Shown in pieces: positions 1,593-30,315 of a stretch of DNA of 64,000 bases. This DNA is from Gemmatimonas groenlandica (GTDB lineage Bacteria > Gemmatimonadota > Gemmatimonadetes > Gemmatimonadales > Gemmatimonadaceae), in NCBI RefSeq assembly GCF_013004105.1, contig NZ_CP053085.1, forward strand, positions 4,464,001 through 4,528,000. The letters are read 5' to 3'. The notes beneath the pieces were generated by a model, which was given only the letters and a program-made list of their open reading frames with translations, did no database searches and was not told the DNA's origin. The position numbers were made by a program, and so were the translations under genes. Within the stretch, counting starts at the first letter, position 1; each line of letters starts with the position of its first letter.

Positions 1593-1612
1593 ATGCGAGT
1601 GGCCAGCAGGAA

Positions 1613-1651
1613 ACGCGCGTGTCGTGACCATCGCGGTCGCGGCACGCGCGT
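1613..1651 (+). terminator. Hairpin after the symporter gene
   Basis: Two 17-nt arms (1613-1629 and 1635-1651) pair almost perfectly around a 5-nt loop. They lie 20 bp after the symporter stop, so a transcription terminator is the natural reading, although no long T run follows. The hairpin is also the first part of a 250-bp sequence repeated at 26537, where the stem is kept but less perfect. Confidence 0.6.
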
Positions 1652-1861
1652 TATGCGTCATAGCCCATGATGTCGGCGATGCCGCGTGTCGCGTTAGCTC
1701 GGTCGATCGAATATCTCGAGCGGAATACGCGCGGGGACGAGGCGCATGGATGCCGTGAACTGGCGGGGTTGCGATGTGGCGGGCCGAGTGGGATCGTGAT
1801 GTGTGCGCCGGAACTCGACGGCTGTCGCGCTGTTATGTCGGTCGAGTGAACAGGCGTTAGC
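1613..1861 (+). repeat. 250-bp intergenic repeat, copy A, at the left edge of cassette array A
   Basis: This stretch aligns over its whole length with 26537-26787 at roughly 75-80 percent by eye. Each copy begins with a terminator-like hairpin just after a chromosomal gene and ends with an attC-like right core (here the last bases are AGGCGTTAGC; in copy B AGGTGTTCGGC). Each is followed by cassette material. Short ORFs in the two copies resemble each other on both strands, so that resemblance is not evidence of coding. It may be a large decayed attC or an attI-like array boundary. The IS110 element is inserted at its right end. Confidence 0.6.
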
Positions 1862-1875
1862 AACTGTCTTGAAAG

Positions 1876-3012
<1,137 letters not shown>

Positions 3013-3101
3013 GAACTACGCCAGAATCAACTGATCGCTAGATACAAGACCGCTTCAGAGACTTTGCCAGCATCAGCATCTCACCGCGCAGAGGATTGTA
3101 A

Positions 3102-3433: not shown

Positions 3434-3509
3434 CGGCGTGGACCCTCAGTCGCGACCGCAAGAATTCATGTGGGCGAAACAATTGTCGAAGTCAGAGAGG
3501 ACCTTTGAG

Positions 3510-3983
3510 ATGTCAATTATGAGAAGCAGCGCTGTGCCTATGCGCGTCATCGCTGCAGTCGGCGCGTGGATGGTCCTTTTCGCCGGCTGCACGAGCCCGG
3601 ACGCCGCGTCGACGCCGACACAGTCGGTGCAGGTGCGCATCGATTCGATGGACGTACATGGCGTGAACCCGAGCGCCCTTAGCATACTGATCTACGCGGA
3701 TGGCCCGGCATCGGTAAAGTTTGGCACAGAGCCACCCCATCTGTTGGTGGACACCGTCCGATTGCGGAGCGCGCCGAGCTTCACGCTCGACGTCTCGAAA
3801 GGTGCCGTACACGTGGAGTTTGTCGACGGACAATTAGATGGCGGCGGCGTGCTGATGCTGGCCGGACACGTCATCGGCCAAGACTCGATTCGCCTTCGTG
3901 CCGTCGGTCGGCACCTGCTTGCTGAGCAGGGGGGAACGGGCATCCGAGTGATCGACCGTGGCAATCCGCGCCTGATGAAATAG
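3510..3983 (+). CDS. Small lipoprotein, unknown function (cassette gene)
   Basis: The 157-aa product has a signal peptide ending in a lipobox (LFAGC, Cys at about residue 26) and a beta-rich exported domain with no motif I recognise. The frame is open back to 3438. I use the ATG at 3510 because it follows GAGAGG and places the lipobox correctly. The gene lies directly between two attC-like sites with almost no spare sequence, the classic gene-cassette arrangement. Probably anchored to the outer membrane. Confidence 0.6.
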   Translation: MSIMRSSAVPMRVIAAVGAWMVLFAGCTSPDAASTPTQSVQVRIDSMDVHGVNPSALSILIYADGPASVKFGTEPPHLLVDTVRLRSAPSFTLDVSKGAVHVEFVDGQLDGGGVLMLAGHVIGQDSIRLRAVGRHLLAEQGGTGIRVIDRGNPRLMK

Positions 3984-3985
3984 CG

Positions 3986-4111
3986 GTCTAACGAAACGTT
4001 GCTGCTGGCAGCGCGAGGCGGTATGCGGCAGGCGGGCGCCGTGCTGGCGCACGGCGCCCGTCCGGCCGCATTTTGTATGATGCGCTGCAGCGGAACGCTG
4101 AGGCGTTATAC
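3986..4111 (+). other. attC recombination site (126 bp), best conserved in array A
   Basis: The left core GTCTAAC (3986-3992) matches RYYYAAC exactly; the right core is GTTATAC (4105-4111). Inner boxes ACGTTGC and GGAACGC pair, and the interior forms an imperfect palindrome with GCTGGCAGCG against CGCTGCAGC, as in long attC sites such as VCRs. The interior is very similar to those at 4750-4874 and 28317-28440. Confidence 0.8.
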
Positions 4112-4160: not shown

Positions 4161-4487
4161 GTGACTTTCGAGTGGGACGCCGCCAAGAGCACCCGCAATC
4201 TGTCGCAGCGCGGATTCGATTTTGAATTCGCGACGTTGGTCTTTCGGGGACCGCATGTCGAAGTCGATGACACGCGCCGTGATTACGGCGAGCGCCGCGT
4301 CATCGCCCTTGGTGTGGCGGACGGTATCCCGCTGACGATCGTTTATACCGATCGCGTGGATTAGACCGGCGGCATCATTCGCCGACTGATCAGTGCCCGC
4401 GTGAGCCATCGCAAGGAGCGACGTCGTTATGTCCAAGCCCTCGAAGCCATCCACCCGCAAGACGACGCCGACGCGGGGGCGGGCTGA
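4161..4487 (+). pseudogene. brnT: BrnT-family toxin interrupted by an in-frame TAG
   Basis: BrnT toxins are small RelE-fold ribonucleases of about 90-100 aa. The N-terminal part is normal for the family (FEWDAAKSTRNLSQRGFDFE, then the VIALGVADG strand and VYTDR). A TAG at 4362-4364 follows RVD, and the frame continues with the conserved C-terminal part (RRLISARVSHRKERRRYV) to a TGA at 4485-4487. One substitution, for example GAG to TAG, explains this. The truncated 67-aa product lacks the conserved C-terminal ISAR/ERRxY segment and is probably inactive. The start is GTG. It overlaps the antitoxin gene in another frame, as in intact brnTA operons. Confidence 0.75.
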
Positions 4488-4755
4488 TCTGAGCCGGCTT
4501 CGCCGGGTCACCGACGCGGAGATCGCGCGGACGTCGCCGCCCGCCCTGCGCAATTTGCCTGAGAGCGTCTGGCAGGATGTCCGGGTGGTGTCTCCGGTGA
4601 CCAAGCAGGCGATCTCGATCCGTCTCGATCAGGACGTGCTCGATTTCTTTCGGGCTTCCGGCCCGCGGTATCAATCGCAGATCAACGCGGTTCTTCGCCA
4701 GTACGTCGAGCATGTCGCCGCGGCGACCCCGCCACGTCGCAAGCGCGTGGTATAA
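4429..4755 (+). CDS. brnA: BrnA-family antitoxin
   Basis: The 108-aa protein ends in the BrnA ribbon-helix-helix-like region (KQAISIRLDQDVLDFFRASG, then YQSQINAVLRQYVEH), which binds DNA as a dimer and neutralises BrnT. The N-terminal half is basic and probably flexible. The ATG follows an ideal AAGGAG and lies inside the 3' part of the toxin frame. With the toxin truncated, the antitoxin is expected to persist only as an autorepressor. The stop codon lies in the left core of the following attC site. Confidence 0.88.
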   Translation: MSKPSKPSTRKTTPTRGRADLSRLRRVTDAEIARTSPPALRNLPESVWQDVRVVSPVTKQAISIRLDQDVLDFFRASGPRYQSQINAVLRQYVEHVAAATPPRRKRVV

Positions 4756-4874
4756 CGGAACGTGGCTGCTGGCAGCGCCAAGCGGTGTGCGGCAGGCGGG
4801 CGCTGTGCTGGCGCACGTCGCCCGTCAGGCCGCATTTTGTTGGATGCGCTGCAGCAGAAACTATAGCGTTCTGC
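4750..4874 (+). other. attC recombination site (125 bp), right core decayed
   Basis: The left core GTATAAC (4750-4756) contains the brnA stop. The interior (CTGCTGGCAGCG, GTGCTGGCGCACG, GGCCGCATTTTGT, GCGCTGCAGCAG) is nearly the same as in the sites at 3986 and 28317. The right core, GTTCTGC (4868-4874), keeps GTT but departs from the RRRY consensus. Confidence 0.7.
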
Positions 4875-5056
4875 CGCTACCCTGATGTACTGCACGCGTC
4901 CACTGTCGAGGTAATCCGGACCAGGCCGACGTCCCGCGTCACCCCCGCCCCTCTAGCGCTGCAGCCACATACGTGCCGTGGTAGCAGATGCTGAGTGTGG
5001 GCCTCCGACGAGCTCCGCCGATATTGCCGATTCTCTGCATATCAATTGATATCAAA

Positions 5057-6268
5057 ATGCCACGAATCTTTGCGGATCAGCAGCTCACTCGCGTTTCTGG
5101 CTTCGCAACTCAGAAATTCGGGCTGCTAATGGCCACTGCCTTTGTCATTCTCTTCGGTGCTTCCTGCGCACCGACAACACCTGACACTCGCTGGCCCGAC
5201 TGGCAGAACGCTGCAAGTTCAGACCAGATTTTTGAGATTCGAGAAAGCAGGTCCACCTGTCGCACATGCATTGGACTTCGCCAAGTGCTGCTCATCGCCG
5301 ACACGAGTCGGTTTGGAGCGGTCGATGAGAGCCCGTTTGTCACGATCGACAGCGCACACCGCATTTGGGTGGCGACCTACAACGGCTACAAGGTTTACGA
5401 TGCCAGAGGCCAGTATGTCCGTACTGTGGGGCGGTTCGGCGGCGGTCCCCTGGAGTTTACAGCCGCCGGCCCGATTTATACGGATGCTGATGGTCGACTC
5501 CACGCGTTTGACCCCGCCGTGTATCGCGAGCTGATAATCAGCAACAGCTTCGAGCTGCTGGACACGCGTCAATTACCACTGGGCGCCGTCGAGGACGTCG
5601 TCGGACTCTCCAACGACGGGCAACGTGCGCTGGTGAATGCCGAATTCATAGACCCGCAGCTCTTTGCAAGCGCAGTTCATCAGCTTGATTCCGGAAAGGT
5701 CACGCGATCATTTGCTACCTCGACTGACAGCGTTTCTCCGCATAGAGGGAGCGCGCTCGCGCGAAAAATTGCCGTGGCGCGGACCGGGCATTTCATCATT
5801 GCCAAGAAGTACGTATATGAGTTCGACGTGGTCAGCCAAGAAGGCACGTCACTCTTGCGCGCTCGTCGGACGAAGGTGTGGCCGTCACCACCGGGAGGAG
5901 TACCGAAGCCGCTTGAGCCAAGCGATGAACTCTGGGGTTCTATCCACGACATCACCGTCGACAGCGACGGGCGTCTTTGGGTTCTCTCGTGGGACCCCAA
6001 GCCCAATTGGCGCGACCTCGTTAGCATCCGCACTGGCCCCGATGGCGCGGCAGACGTCCGGCAAAAGGATGATAGTGAGTCGCTGTATGTTACGAGGCTC
6101 GAGGTCTTTGACCTGAGGAATGGGGAAATTCTCGGGACGCAGACATTTCAGAACATGATTTGGGGATTTCTCGGACCAGACCGTGCCTTTGGTTTCAACT
6201 ACGCAGCATCGGGCGAGCCGCAACTTGCCGTCTTCCAGCTTTCACTGGACGACGCTCCCAACAAATGA
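5057..6268 (+). CDS. Exported 6-bladed beta-propeller lipoprotein, unknown function
   Basis: The protein has a hydrophobic signal segment ending in GASC, a likely lipobox. About 360 residues with regularly spaced blade motifs follow (for example RIWVATYNGYKVYDARGQYVRTVGRFGGGPLEF and DGRLWVLSW). This pattern is typical of the 6-bladed propeller lipoproteins abundant in Gemmatimonadota and Bacteroidota. A CRTC motif is present near residue 70. The frame is open to 4988; I chose 5057 as a compromise, and 5129 is possible. At about 1.5 kb it is a large cassette. Its composition is less GC-rich than its neighbours. Ligand unknown. Confidence 0.7.
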   Translation: MPRIFADQQLTRVSGFATQKFGLLMATAFVILFGASCAPTTPDTRWPDWQNAASSDQIFEIRESRSTCRTCIGLRQVLLIADTSRFGAVDESPFVTIDSAHRIWVATYNGYKVYDARGQYVRTVGRFGGGPLEFTAAGPIYTDADGRLHAFDPAVYRELIISNSFELLDTRQLPLGAVEDVVGLSNDGQRALVNAEFIDPQLFASAVHQLDSGKVTRSFATSTDSVSPHRGSALARKIAVARTGHFIIAKKYVYEFDVVSQEGTSLLRARRTKVWPSPPGGVPKPLEPSDELWGSIHDITVDSDGRLWVLSWDPKPNWRDLVSIRTGPDGAADVRQKDDSESLYVTRLEVFDLRNGEILGTQTFQNMIWGFLGPDRAFGFNYAASGEPQLAVFQLSLDDAPNK

Positions 6269-6376: not shown

Positions 6377-6470
6377 GCATAACGTGCGTTGCAGCGGACG
6401 AGCGAGCTGCGGAACCTCGCGGCGCTCGCATTTTATTGAGTTCGCTCGTAGCATAGCTGAGGCGTTCGGG
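6377..6470 (+). other. attC-like site (about 94 bp)
   Basis: The left core is GCATAAC (6377-6383) and the right end is GAGGCGTTCGGG with GTT at 6464. The inner left box GCGTTGCAGCG and right-half elements GCATTTTATTGAG, GCTGAGGCGTT match the other sites here. It separates the propeller gene from the next lipoprotein gene. Confidence 0.6.
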
Positions 6471-26787: not shown

Positions 26788-26930
26788 ATGCAAGAGCGTG
26801 AGTGCGCGCGGACGATGTTCTGACCCAGCAGTAGTGCTCGGCGGAGTTTCGGTGCGCCTGCAGCAAATCGGTCGATGCGCTCACGGCCAAGTCCAGGTAG
26901 ATTTCAATGTTCCCTCCTTTCGAGGTGTGT

Positions 26931-27152
26931 ATGGCCGTCGAACTCACTGCGGTATATCAAGAAGTGCCCGAGGGGTTCATCGCGTTTGTCGAAGAGCTGC
27001 CAGGCGCTAACACGCAGGGCGCGACCCTTGATGAGGCGCGAGCCAACTTGCGCGAGGCCGTGGCGCTCGTGATGGAGGCGAATCGCGCCATGGCCGAAGA
27101 AGATCTCGCGGGCGCCGCCGTGATTCGCGAACCCCTCCGCCTCAGCGCGTGA
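26931..27152 (+). CDS. hicB: HicB-family antitoxin
   Basis: The 73-aa protein has the HicB fold signature: VYQEVPEGFIAFVEELPGANTQGATLDEARANLREAVALVMEAN. This partial RNase H-like domain masks the HicA toxin. It is short and lacks the C-terminal DNA-binding domain of longer HicBs, a common compact form. AGGTGTGT precedes the ATG at 26931. It overlaps hicA by 4 bp (GTGA). The antitoxin-first order is less usual than hicA-hicB. Confidence 0.88.
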   Translation: MAVELTAVYQEVPEGFIAFVEELPGANTQGATLDEARANLREAVALVMEANRAMAEEDLAGAAVIREPLRLSA

Positions 27153-27334
27153 AGCGGGTCGACCTCGTGCGCCATGTCGAGGCGCACGGCTGCGTCCTCC
27201 TCCGGGAGGGCGCCAACCACTCGGTTTTCGTTAATCGCCCCGCGCGTCGGACGTCCGTCATCCCACACCATCGTGAAGTGAATGATTATCTCGCGCGAAA
27301 GATCTGCCGCGATCTGGAGATTCCGGAGCCCTGA
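27149..27334 (+). CDS. hicA: HicA-family mRNA interferase toxin
   Basis: The 61-aa product has the HicA double-stranded-RNA-binding-like fold: KRVDLVRHVEAHGCVLLREGANHSVFVN with the catalytic His, then TSVIPHHREVNDYLARKICRDLEI. It cleaves mRNA when HicB is lost. Its GTG start overlaps the hicB stop. All family positions I can check are present, so it looks active, unlike the BrnT toxin in array A. An attC site follows directly. Confidence 0.88.
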   Translation: MKRVDLVRHVEAHGCVLLREGANHSVFVNRPARRTSVIPHHREVNDYLARKICRDLEIPEP

Positions 27335-27335
27335 T

Positions 27336-27431
27336 GCCGAACAGAGCGTTGCAACTGACAAGCGCGTTTCGGATTGCTCGCTACGCTCGCGTGTGATTTG
27401 ATGCGCTAGCAGTTGAACGCTGAGGCGTTAG
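27336..27431 (+). other. attC site of the hicBA cassette, interrupted at its right core by an IS remnant
   Basis: The left core is GCCGAAC (27336-27342) and the right core GTTAG starts at 27427. Inner boxes GCGTTGCAACTG and CAGTTGAACGC pair perfectly except for one extra G, the extrahelical-base pattern of functional attC sites. IS110-derived sequence starts immediately after GAGGCGTTAGC. Confidence 0.75.
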
Positions 27432-27606
27432 CAACATTCTTGAAAGTCAATCGACTACGAGTATCGCTGTCGTGGCTTTCGCGCTCCACGTGGTGTTCGT
27501 TCGCATCATCATATCGAGGATAGTGAGCCGTTTCCGCATACACGGGACGAGCGCGAGCTTCTTGGGCTTTCCGGCGGCGATCAATCGCAAGTAGAACTCG
27601 CGAATC
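27431..27606 (-). mobile_element. Truncated IS110 element (transposase 3' end only)
   Basis: About 175 bp match 1860-2035 with 13 differences by hand count (about 92-93 percent identity), covering the element's end and the last 50 or so codons of the transposase. The rest is deleted. It is inserted at the same position of an attC site and in the same orientation as the intact copy. Confidence 0.85.
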
Positions 27607-27637: not shown

Positions 27638-28222
27638 ATGGGAACCGTAGGTTCGATGTGCCCACGTACCGTTCAAGTTGCCCGCTGGTCCGACACAAGT
27701 GGCGCTACAACCGCTACGGTAGCGGTCCGATACCGTACGTGGGCCTCGTTGTGCCAGTTGGCGTGCGTCCTACTGTCGGCGGCGCACCTGACGGGTTGCG
27801 CGCCACAGTCTGAGCGAGGCACAGCGTCGGACTCCTCGGCCTATGACATCAACGAAACCGCGCCACGTCCGTCGTTGCGAGCGGAACTTGCTGGGCGTGT
27901 GCTCGATTTTCGCGGTGCGCCGTTGGACTCCGAGCGAGTCACCTTGGAAGGTGGAGTAGGCAACCTCGCATACTGGGCAGGGCCCGTCTATTCCGACTCG
28001 ACGGGAGAGTTTGTGATCACGGTGAACGGCTATGGCCCAGGGTCGGTGGCGGCGTGGGACACCGCCATCATGCGGCCGCGGTTCGCACGCGTCACCTACA
28101 TGATTCAGTCCTTCAAGCGCTCGTACGGATTCGCCAAAATCGTGGATACCGTGACTCTGCACTTCACGCATCTCCGCGAACCCGTACAGCGTACGCGCAT
28201 GCCCGATGTGCGGTTGCGTTGA
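27638..28222 (+). CDS. Lipoprotein with carboxypeptidase-regulatory-like domain (cassette gene)
   Basis: The 194-aa frame holds a hydrophobic signal (LCQLACVLLSAAHLTGC) whose lipobox Cys lies near residue 54, so the true start is probably inside the frame, although no better ATG or GTG is visible. The mature part (LRAELAGRVLDFRGAPLDSERVTLEGGVGN, then YSDSTGEFVITVNGYGPG) resembles a carboxypeptidase-regulatory beta-sandwich. It lies between the IS remnant and a well-conserved attC. Confidence 0.55.
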   Translation: MGTVGSMCPRTVQVARWSDTSGATTATVAVRYRTWASLCQLACVLLSAAHLTGCAPQSERGTASDSSAYDINETAPRPSLRAELAGRVLDFRGAPLDSERVTLEGGVGNLAYWAGPVYSDSTGEFVITVNGYGPGSVAAWDTAIMRPRFARVTYMIQSFKRSYGFAKIVDTVTLHFTHLREPVQRTRMPDVRLR

Positions 28223-28316: not shown

Positions 28317-28440
28317 GCCCAACGGATCGTCGCTGCTGGCAGCGGGCGGTATGCGGCAGGCGGCGAGCCGTGCTGGCGCACGTGGTCCGTCCGGCCGCGT
28401 TGTGTTTGATGCGCTGCAGCAGAACGCTGAAGCGTTCAGC
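28317..28440 (+). other. attC recombination site (124 bp), best conserved in array B
   Basis: The left core GCCCAAC (28317-28323) fits RYYYAAC exactly; the right core is GTTCAGC (28434-28440). The interior (CGCTGCTGGCAGCG, GTGCTGGCGCACG, TCCGGCCGCGTTGTGTTTG, GCGCTGCAGCAGAACGCTG) is very similar to the sites at 3986 and 4750 in array A, 24 kb away. Confidence 0.8.
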
Positions 28441-29425: not shown

Positions 29426-29835
29426 TATACGAGAACCGTGCCGCTCGCTTGCGCTTGGTTCATCGTGTACGCCGTGCCCAATGCCGCGAGTAGCCGTGGC
29501 GATTTGATTGTCGTGGGACGCAACCCCTTGGTAACACAGACCGCGCCTTTGTGGGTCGACCGCCTACCGGAGTGTCGGCAATTGCGCGGTACTGCCCGGC
29601 CGCTGCGGAAAGGCATCGCTTTGGCTTTGCCGCGTAATGAATGGTCCGGGGGCGAGCGGTTCGCTCGTTCAGCGATTCGAGCCGGGGCTTGATGTGACCG
29701 TCGTCGATGCGACTGGGTTCGACGCCCTTTCGTTGATGGACTTCGCTTCGCGATATCACGCGGTCGCCGTTCTGGCGCAGGTCGCTCGTTTGGCCGCATG
29801 TTGTTTGATATGCGGCAGCAGCATGCCAGGCGAGA
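29426..29835 (+). other. Decayed cassette remains ending in an attC-like right half
   Basis: Open frames at 29438-29692 and 29637-29864 are not supported as genes. From 29772, GTTCTGGCGCAGGTCGCTCG, TTGGCCGCATGTTGTTTGAT and GCGGCAGCAGCATGCCAGGCG follow the order of the conserved attC interior and right end, with the terminal core lost (GCGAGAC). It precedes the HIT gene by 34 bp. Confidence 0.4.
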
Positions 29836-29868: not shown

Positions 29869-30315
29869 ATGGCATGTGTGTTCTGCGAGATCATCGACGG
29901 GGGTTCACCCGCGAGTATCATCTATCGGGACGAACTCGTGATCGCGTTCATGACGATCCATCCCTCCTCGCCTGGGGAGTGCACCGTCATTCCGCTGGTC
30001 CACGTCGACCATTTTACCGACGTCGAGGACCGCACCGCCGAGCGAATCATGCGCGTAGCGCAGCGCATCGGGCGCCGCATGCGGGAGGTGTTTCAACCAC
30101 AGCGGGTAGGCATGGTCGTTCACGGGTATGGTGTCGCCCATGCGCACCTGATTCTTGTCCCCCAGCACGGTCCGTATGACATCACCTCAGCTCGGTTTGC
30201 CCGGGTCGAGAACGGGCAAGTCGTGTTCACGGTTCAGCATATCGCCACCCCCGAACGCCGCGTCCTGGATGAACACGCACGCCTCCTGTCAGGTGTCGAA
30301 GCGCAGACTGCCTAA
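29869..30315 (+). CDS. HIT-family nucleotide hydrolase/transferase
   Basis: The 148-aa protein has the HIT architecture: CVFCEIIDGGSPASIIYRDELVIAFM at the start, SPGECTVIPLVHVDHF, and a C-terminal histidine triad region (VVHGYGVAHAHLILVPQH, HxHxxxxxxxH form near residues 88-100). HIT proteins hydrolyse nucleoside phosphoramidates or dinucleoside polyphosphates. Here the triad HAHLILVPQH is slightly off the common HxHxHxx pattern, so activity should not be assumed. The stop TAA lies in an attC left core, marking it as a cassette gene. Confidence 0.85.
   Translation: MACVFCEIIDGGSPASIIYRDELVIAFMTIHPSSPGECTVIPLVHVDHFTDVEDRTAERIMRVAQRIGRRMREVFQPQRVGMVVHGYGVAHAHLILVPQHGPYDITSARFARVENGQVVFTVQHIATPERRVLDEHARLLSGVEAQTA

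Follow-up and report, generated by a model that had tools for sequence, protein, structure and literature searches.

To which integron, if any, do the attC sites of this locus belong? The window analysed here is a stretch of 64,000 nucleotides from Gemmatimonas groenlandica (G000:C1:4464001-4528000, in a genome of 5,179,092 bases on a single contig). A sequence-only reading of it picked out three putative attC sites with almost the same interior, in two arrays, and took this homogeneity as the mark of a resident chromosomal integron in a lineage that probably had its own integrase. The three sites are:

3986..4111, forward strand: attC, long family, first site (covariance models)
4750..4874, forward strand: attC, long family, second site (covariance models)
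28317..28440, forward strand: attC, long family, main site of the sequence-only reading (covariance models)

A covariance model derived from the genome's other attC sites (R2; run with cmsearch) placed all three sites at exactly the coordinates first proposed, matching each on the modelled bottom strand. Pairwise identity among them is 84.9, 84.1 and 82.4%, as compared with 57.7 +/- 2.9% for shuffled sequence. Two of the interior strings on which the reading was based, CTGCTGGCAGCG and GTGCTGGCGCACG, each occur in the window as three exact copies, one per site, with none on the other strand; the remaining strings carry less weight, GGCCGC being uninformative (dozens of copies) and GCGCTGCAGC having one copy outside the three sites. 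The division into two arrays is also borne out: the sites at 3986 and 4750 lie in an array that starts at ~1.6 kb (array 1), and the site at 28317 lies in an array that starts at ~26.5 kb (array 2).

The window attC sites form bottom-strand, attC-like hairpins with AAC/GTT ends. Indeed, both this long family and a second, shorter family display the imperfect inverted repeat, the AAC/GTT ends, the bottom-strand hairpin and the extrahelical bases on one arm by which attC sites are recognized. Folding of the single-stranded bottom strand beats shuffled sequences in four of five long-family members (z -7.5, -3.2, -4.2 and -4.1); positions 28318-28440, folded alone, give a marginal energy (z -1.1). 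Most of the one-sided variants that are kept in the long family allow G-U pairs on the bottom strand only, as attC should show, and 12 of the 24 pairs in the consensus fold of the short family have changed on both sides while still pairing.

A model built from the long attC family (R1) gives 15 matches in the genome, eight of which score above 110 bits: four in the array headed by the integrase gene intI, three in the window, and one at 2.32 Mb. Identical interiors dispersed as repeats unrelated to cassettes, the finding that would have refuted the sequence-only reading, were sought genome-wide and are absent; the eight best matches (>110 bits) all fall within cassette arrays headed by attI. 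The family also recurs in genus-mates, where nearly the same interior is seen in G048, G098 and G022, and 16 sites from four species have a mean column identity of 88%. While a lineage-specific family does therefore exist, the description of the attC sites as homogeneous was overstated: the long family accounts for approximately eight of the genome's ~26 attC sites, and the rest are shorter or different. Given so mixed a pool, homogeneity alone would have been weak evidence for a resident integron.

The genome contains a single intact intI (G000:C1:4063604-4064674), ~400 kb upstream of the window. Its product matches the integron integrase family TIGR02249 of NCBIfam at 441.4 bits (cut-off 265), over residues 43-356 of 356 and with no internal stops. 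The gene is followed by an array of 19 attC sites, including members of the long family, spread over ~22 kb (4065605-4087868), with the first attC 1 kb past the intI stop codon. The attI site after intI is a leader (L006:6775-6946) ending GGCGTTAGAC, at which point the first cassette begins; copies of the leader elsewhere stop at the same point. With its intact IntI, its attC array and an attI with a GTT core, the locus is a predicted complete chromosomal integron, in which IntI would recombine attC with attI. The resident integron proposed from the three sites is hence supported, and the integrase that the lineage was thought to have had is not only a thing of the past: it is still there. An integron integrase gene is found in 81 of 148 genomes of the family, and in nine of the 14 genomes listed for the genus, the window genome counted.

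The more interesting feature of the window is that both of its arrays start with an orphan attI, a design that recurs in the genus. The remaining features of the two arrays are:

1602..1860, forward strand: attI-like leader W1, head of array 1; GTT core at 1856-1858
1861..3053, reverse strand: IS110-family insertion sequence (transposase 1876-2934), its left end abutting the GCGTTAG core of W1
3438..3983, forward strand: cassette ORF of 181 aa without a Pfam family, also present as a decayed copy in the intI-headed array
4161..4755, forward strand: BrnT/BrnA toxin-antitoxin cassette (BrnT 4161-4364, BrnA 4429-4755)
4988..6268, forward strand: cassette ORF of 426 aa with a weak propeller-repeat match
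6377..6470, forward strand: attC, short family, 82 bits
26527..26785, forward strand: attI-like leader W2, head of array 2; homology stops at the GTT core
26907..27334, forward strand: first cassette of array 2, in which a HicB-like ORF (26907-27152; UPF0150-like, below cut-off) comes before a HicA toxin (27149-27334)
27336..27433, forward strand: attC, short family, 85 bits, whose GCGTTAG core carries an IS110 remnant (27423-27605)
27638..28222, forward strand: cassette ORF of 194 aa without a Pfam family
29757..29835, forward strand: degenerate attC, long family, 3' half
29869..30315, forward strand: HIT-domain cassette, of which the intI-headed array has a truncated copy at 87% identity (L132:5857-6168)

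By the usual definition (at least two attC sites and no intI nearby), both arrays are CALINs: array 1 has attC sites at 3986, 4750 and 6377, array 2 has them at 27336 and 28317, and the sole intI of the genome is 400 kb off. Parts of the arrays are decayed, with an insertion sequence at the core of W1 and degenerate attC sites in array 2. HIT-domain (87%) and lipoprotein-like cassettes are common to the window arrays and the intI array, in decayed form, and a BrnT-like ORF was noted by eye in the intI array (L008:9437-9950).

A blastn search with the leader matches the genome in exactly three places: directly after intI, and at the head of each window array. W1 is 78% identical to the leader after intI (over 171 nt) and 80% identical to W2 (over 257 nt). 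Every copy loses its homology to the others at the GTT crossover core, the point from which the first cassette or an insertion sequence runs on; this is the position that attI must occupy. A fourth copy, heading the array at 2.32 Mb, is found by a profile of the other three from which it had been left out (E 1.9e-9 in 1.5 Mb). Being homologous to the genome's own intI-proximal attI, ending at the core, and heading arrays in the correct orientation, W1, W2 and the 2.32 Mb copy are, on sequence grounds, orphan attI sites. An independent profile test ruled out that the leaders are chance similarities or attC remnants. A fifth candidate, at 3.58 Mb, is weak (E 0.012, 42 nt); it ends TCGGTCGAGCGAATAGAGGTTAGC, and a cassette and an attC come after it. 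In several cases the orphan attI lies just downstream of a host gene: a sodium:solute symporter gene has its stop codon 9 nt before W1, a BlaR/TonB-type gene ends ~250 nt before W2, and an FAD-oxidoreductase gene is found at the 2.32 Mb copy. No recognisable attI accompanies the attC at 4.999 Mb (L131:6850-6969). This single site, which follows a metallo-hydrolase-like ORF together with an IS110 fragment, is possibly an off-target insertion or a relic.

At the nucleotide level, the window leader has no real match in 148 genomes of the family beyond its own. The attI is thus species-specific at this level, and each genome was therefore searched with its own leader (either the intI-proximal leader or a profile from G048). 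Genus-mates G048 and G098 each have one intI and four attI copies, all of those in G048 being array heads, while G086 has one intI and four to five copies. In G022, a closed genome of the same genus, there is one good copy and one decayed copy, and blastn gives the intI leader only. G110, from another genus, has one extra copy. With the G048 profile (E<1e-3, 1.5 Mb), no match lies away from array heads, except for reverse-strand shadows of true copies. The attI sites of loci L012 and L110 do not match that of the window genome. In G109, as a separate observation, a broken intI adjoins an attI-like leader (L161:3858-5285; E 9e-8) and an intact intI lies elsewhere in the genome, a case of intI decay in place.

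Cassettes appear to have moved between these addresses. The first cassette of the intI array and the first cassette of the 2.32 Mb array are 96.0% identical over ~780 nt; identity falls to 66.9% in the attI sites that precede them and to the level of shuffled sequence in the flanks beyond their attC sites, and the boundaries of the shared segment are GTT cores. A near-identical cassette behind diverged attI sites is, by all appearances, the footprint of site-specific cassette movement, with present-day activity of the orphan attI a matter of inference.

The three sites with which we began are, in our judgement, probably attC sites of a resident chromosomal integron that has several separate cassette platforms and a single IntI serving them. 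The reading draws on what the sequences show: one intI, attC sites, attI copies whose likeness stops at the GTT core, two diverged attI sites with a near-identical cassette after each, and the same design in sister species. Under the proposed arrangement, (i) intI is followed by its own attI and a long cassette array, while at least three more attI copies and one weak candidate lie elsewhere, without intI, (ii) the single IntI would excise cassettes at folded bottom-strand attC hairpins, and (iii) excised cassettes would be re-inserted by IntI, in trans, at any attI copy, such that one pool is stored and shuffled over several addresses. Cassettes at an orphan attI might, in addition, be read through from the host gene upstream. 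Weighing against this reading are the decaying parts of the two window arrays, the attC at 4.999 Mb that lacks a recognisable attI, and G022, with its decayed second attI and a blastn match to the intI leader only. The action of IntI in trans at orphan attI sites, the continued activity of these sites, and the route by which they were copied are what we infer. The wider proposal—a multi-address Gemmatimonas integron in which one IntI serves scattered attI sites, the copies are homogenised in each genome to match the integrase, and intI changes address between species—strikes us as evenly balanced between true and false.

The main rival holds that the orphan attI-headed arrays are former complete integrons which lost intI in place (relic CALINs), leaving the present intI as the last of several. 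The addresses of intI in the genus are in line with this: it lies behind a DEAD-box helicase gene in G048 and G086, behind a sortilin-like gene in G098, and in a third region in the window genome. At the helicase locus of G022 there is, moreover, a decayed attI without intI (mutated core GCTAG, no attC within 1.2 kb), and the fifth, degenerate attI candidate of the window genome adjoins a sortilin-like gene fragment, from the gene that stands before intI in G098. (We considered whether the sortilin-gene locus is an intact address common to the two genomes, and rejected this; the intact orthologue lies several kb farther upstream, and only the fragment adjoins the fifth attI.) Three observations count against intI loss. 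Firstly, the sequence before W1, W2 and the 2.32 Mb copy contains no intI remnant, and neither do the other orphan loci tested. Secondly, the 9 nt between the symporter stop codon and W1 leave no room for a partial intI deletion. Thirdly, the attI copies within G048 and within G086 are 80-89% alike, closer than copies from one species are to those from another. For example, G048_o2 and G098_o141, two orphan copies that follow one and the same gene in their genomes (tblastx 85% over 786 residues), share 74% identity, whereas G048_o2 shares 85% with the intI leader of its own genome. The copies of G098 (65-73% among themselves) are too diverged to show any such likeness. Likeness within a genome calls for recent copying or homogenisation, either of which would explain it, rather than for old, separate integrons. 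We therefore regard intI loss in place as unlikely, if the best of the alternatives.

Far less probable is that array and leader spread together, through ordinary segmental duplication or IS-driven rearrangement of a single array in which cassette recombination played no part. Array 1 and the intI-headed array do carry two IS110-family copies that are 99.9% identical, so that the arrays could have been rearranged with one another, and the leader sequence common to W1 and W2 extends farther upstream than that which either has in common with the intI leader. However, the arrays differ in cassette content, their flanking host genes are unrelated, and the only cassette shared at high identity has GTT cores as its bounds and stands behind diverged attI sites, not within a longer duplicated block. 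Duplication may nonetheless be the origin of the attI copies themselves. The least credible explanation, that off-target IntI activity inserted cassettes at random attI-like sites (attG) and that leader similarity is incidental, has precedent in that off-target insertion is among the proposed CALIN origins (PMC8618304) and Xanthomonas CALINs away from ilvD have been discussed against attG insertion (PMC12444791), but it is refuted for W1 and W2 by leaders that share 170-260 nt at 73-83% identity, far more than a short core, with all strong leader matches at array heads, and it stands only for loci like the lone attC at 4.999 Mb, which could be such an insertion.

Several known systems resemble the multi-platform integron favoured here. 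Like the sedentary chromosomal integron of, for example, Vibrio cholerae, it has an intact intI, an attI, a long array, attC sequence shared across the lineage and toxin-antitoxin cassettes; it differs in having at least three extra attI-headed arrays elsewhere on the chromosome, and in the transcription of intI towards attI. That layout is known from the reverse-orientation integrons of Treponema (PMC3607928), which are not known to have multiple attI addresses; the same paper describes one attI in each integron, and one is also given as typical in PMC9024848. The two window arrays, having attC sites and no neighbouring intI, would be classed as CALINs by standard software, yet a homologue of the attI that this genome has after intI stands at the start of each. 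Delta-attI-type class 1 gene cassettes (PMC12901181) also carry attI sequence outside its normal position, and theirs is functional in recombination tests; those, however, are truncated attI at cassette ends in mobile arrays, while here full-length attI sites head separate chromosomal arrays. The literature on the integrons of Gemmatimonas or Gemmatimonadota yielded reviews or surveys only, and among papers on orphan, second or multiple attI sites none was evidently on chromosomal copies; the open-licence literature, mostly in the form of titles and opening abstracts, makes no mention of such copies at the head of separate arrays.

CALINs are more numerous than complete integrons (PMC9668308), and about half of Xanthomonas genomes have CALINs at a distance from the intI locus (PMC12444791). 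Their origin is debated; PMC8618304 lists off-target insertion, intI loss and rearrangement, and copied attI is not among the three. If our reading is correct, copied attI would be a further origin. Attachment sites other than those of class 1 are poorly described and missed by IntegronFinder (PMC9024848), and attI-headed arrays without intI are consequently filed as CALINs. Should intI-less arrays often be headed by attI, many CALINs may be active satellites of a distant integrase, not relics. Anyone can repeat the simple test of searching a genome with the leader that follows its intI. The system also provides diverged attI sites, naturally matched to one integrase, as material for learning what an integrase requires of attI outside class 1.

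Some observations on the integrase and on individual elements complete the picture. The intI gene reads towards attI in all nine Gemmatimonadaceae loci scored, and also in loci labelled Acidobacteria, Rokubacteria, Krumholzibacteriota and others; among the loci of 32 integrase-bearing genomes, 20 have this orientation and 12 are divergent (mostly labelled proteobacterial). The IntI of the window genome clusters with that of G018, from another genus, and that of a Gemmatimonadota groundwater MAG (SH-aLRT 96), not with the IntI of genus-mates, possibly reflecting replacement or exchange within the phylum. Three GCGTTAG cores have an IS110-family element or its end against them: those of attI W1, an attC in the intI array (L006:11697 to L008:886) and an attC in array 2 (the remnant). 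An IS110-family end also abuts an orphan attI of genus-mate G086 (L183 near 674). We take the element to behave like the attC-targeting group of insertion sequences, with attI hit here too. Finally, attC model matches recur at ~269-nt spacing at two loci of G070 (L147:2115-3016 and L149:3891-4523), as if a small cassette had been amplified in tandem.
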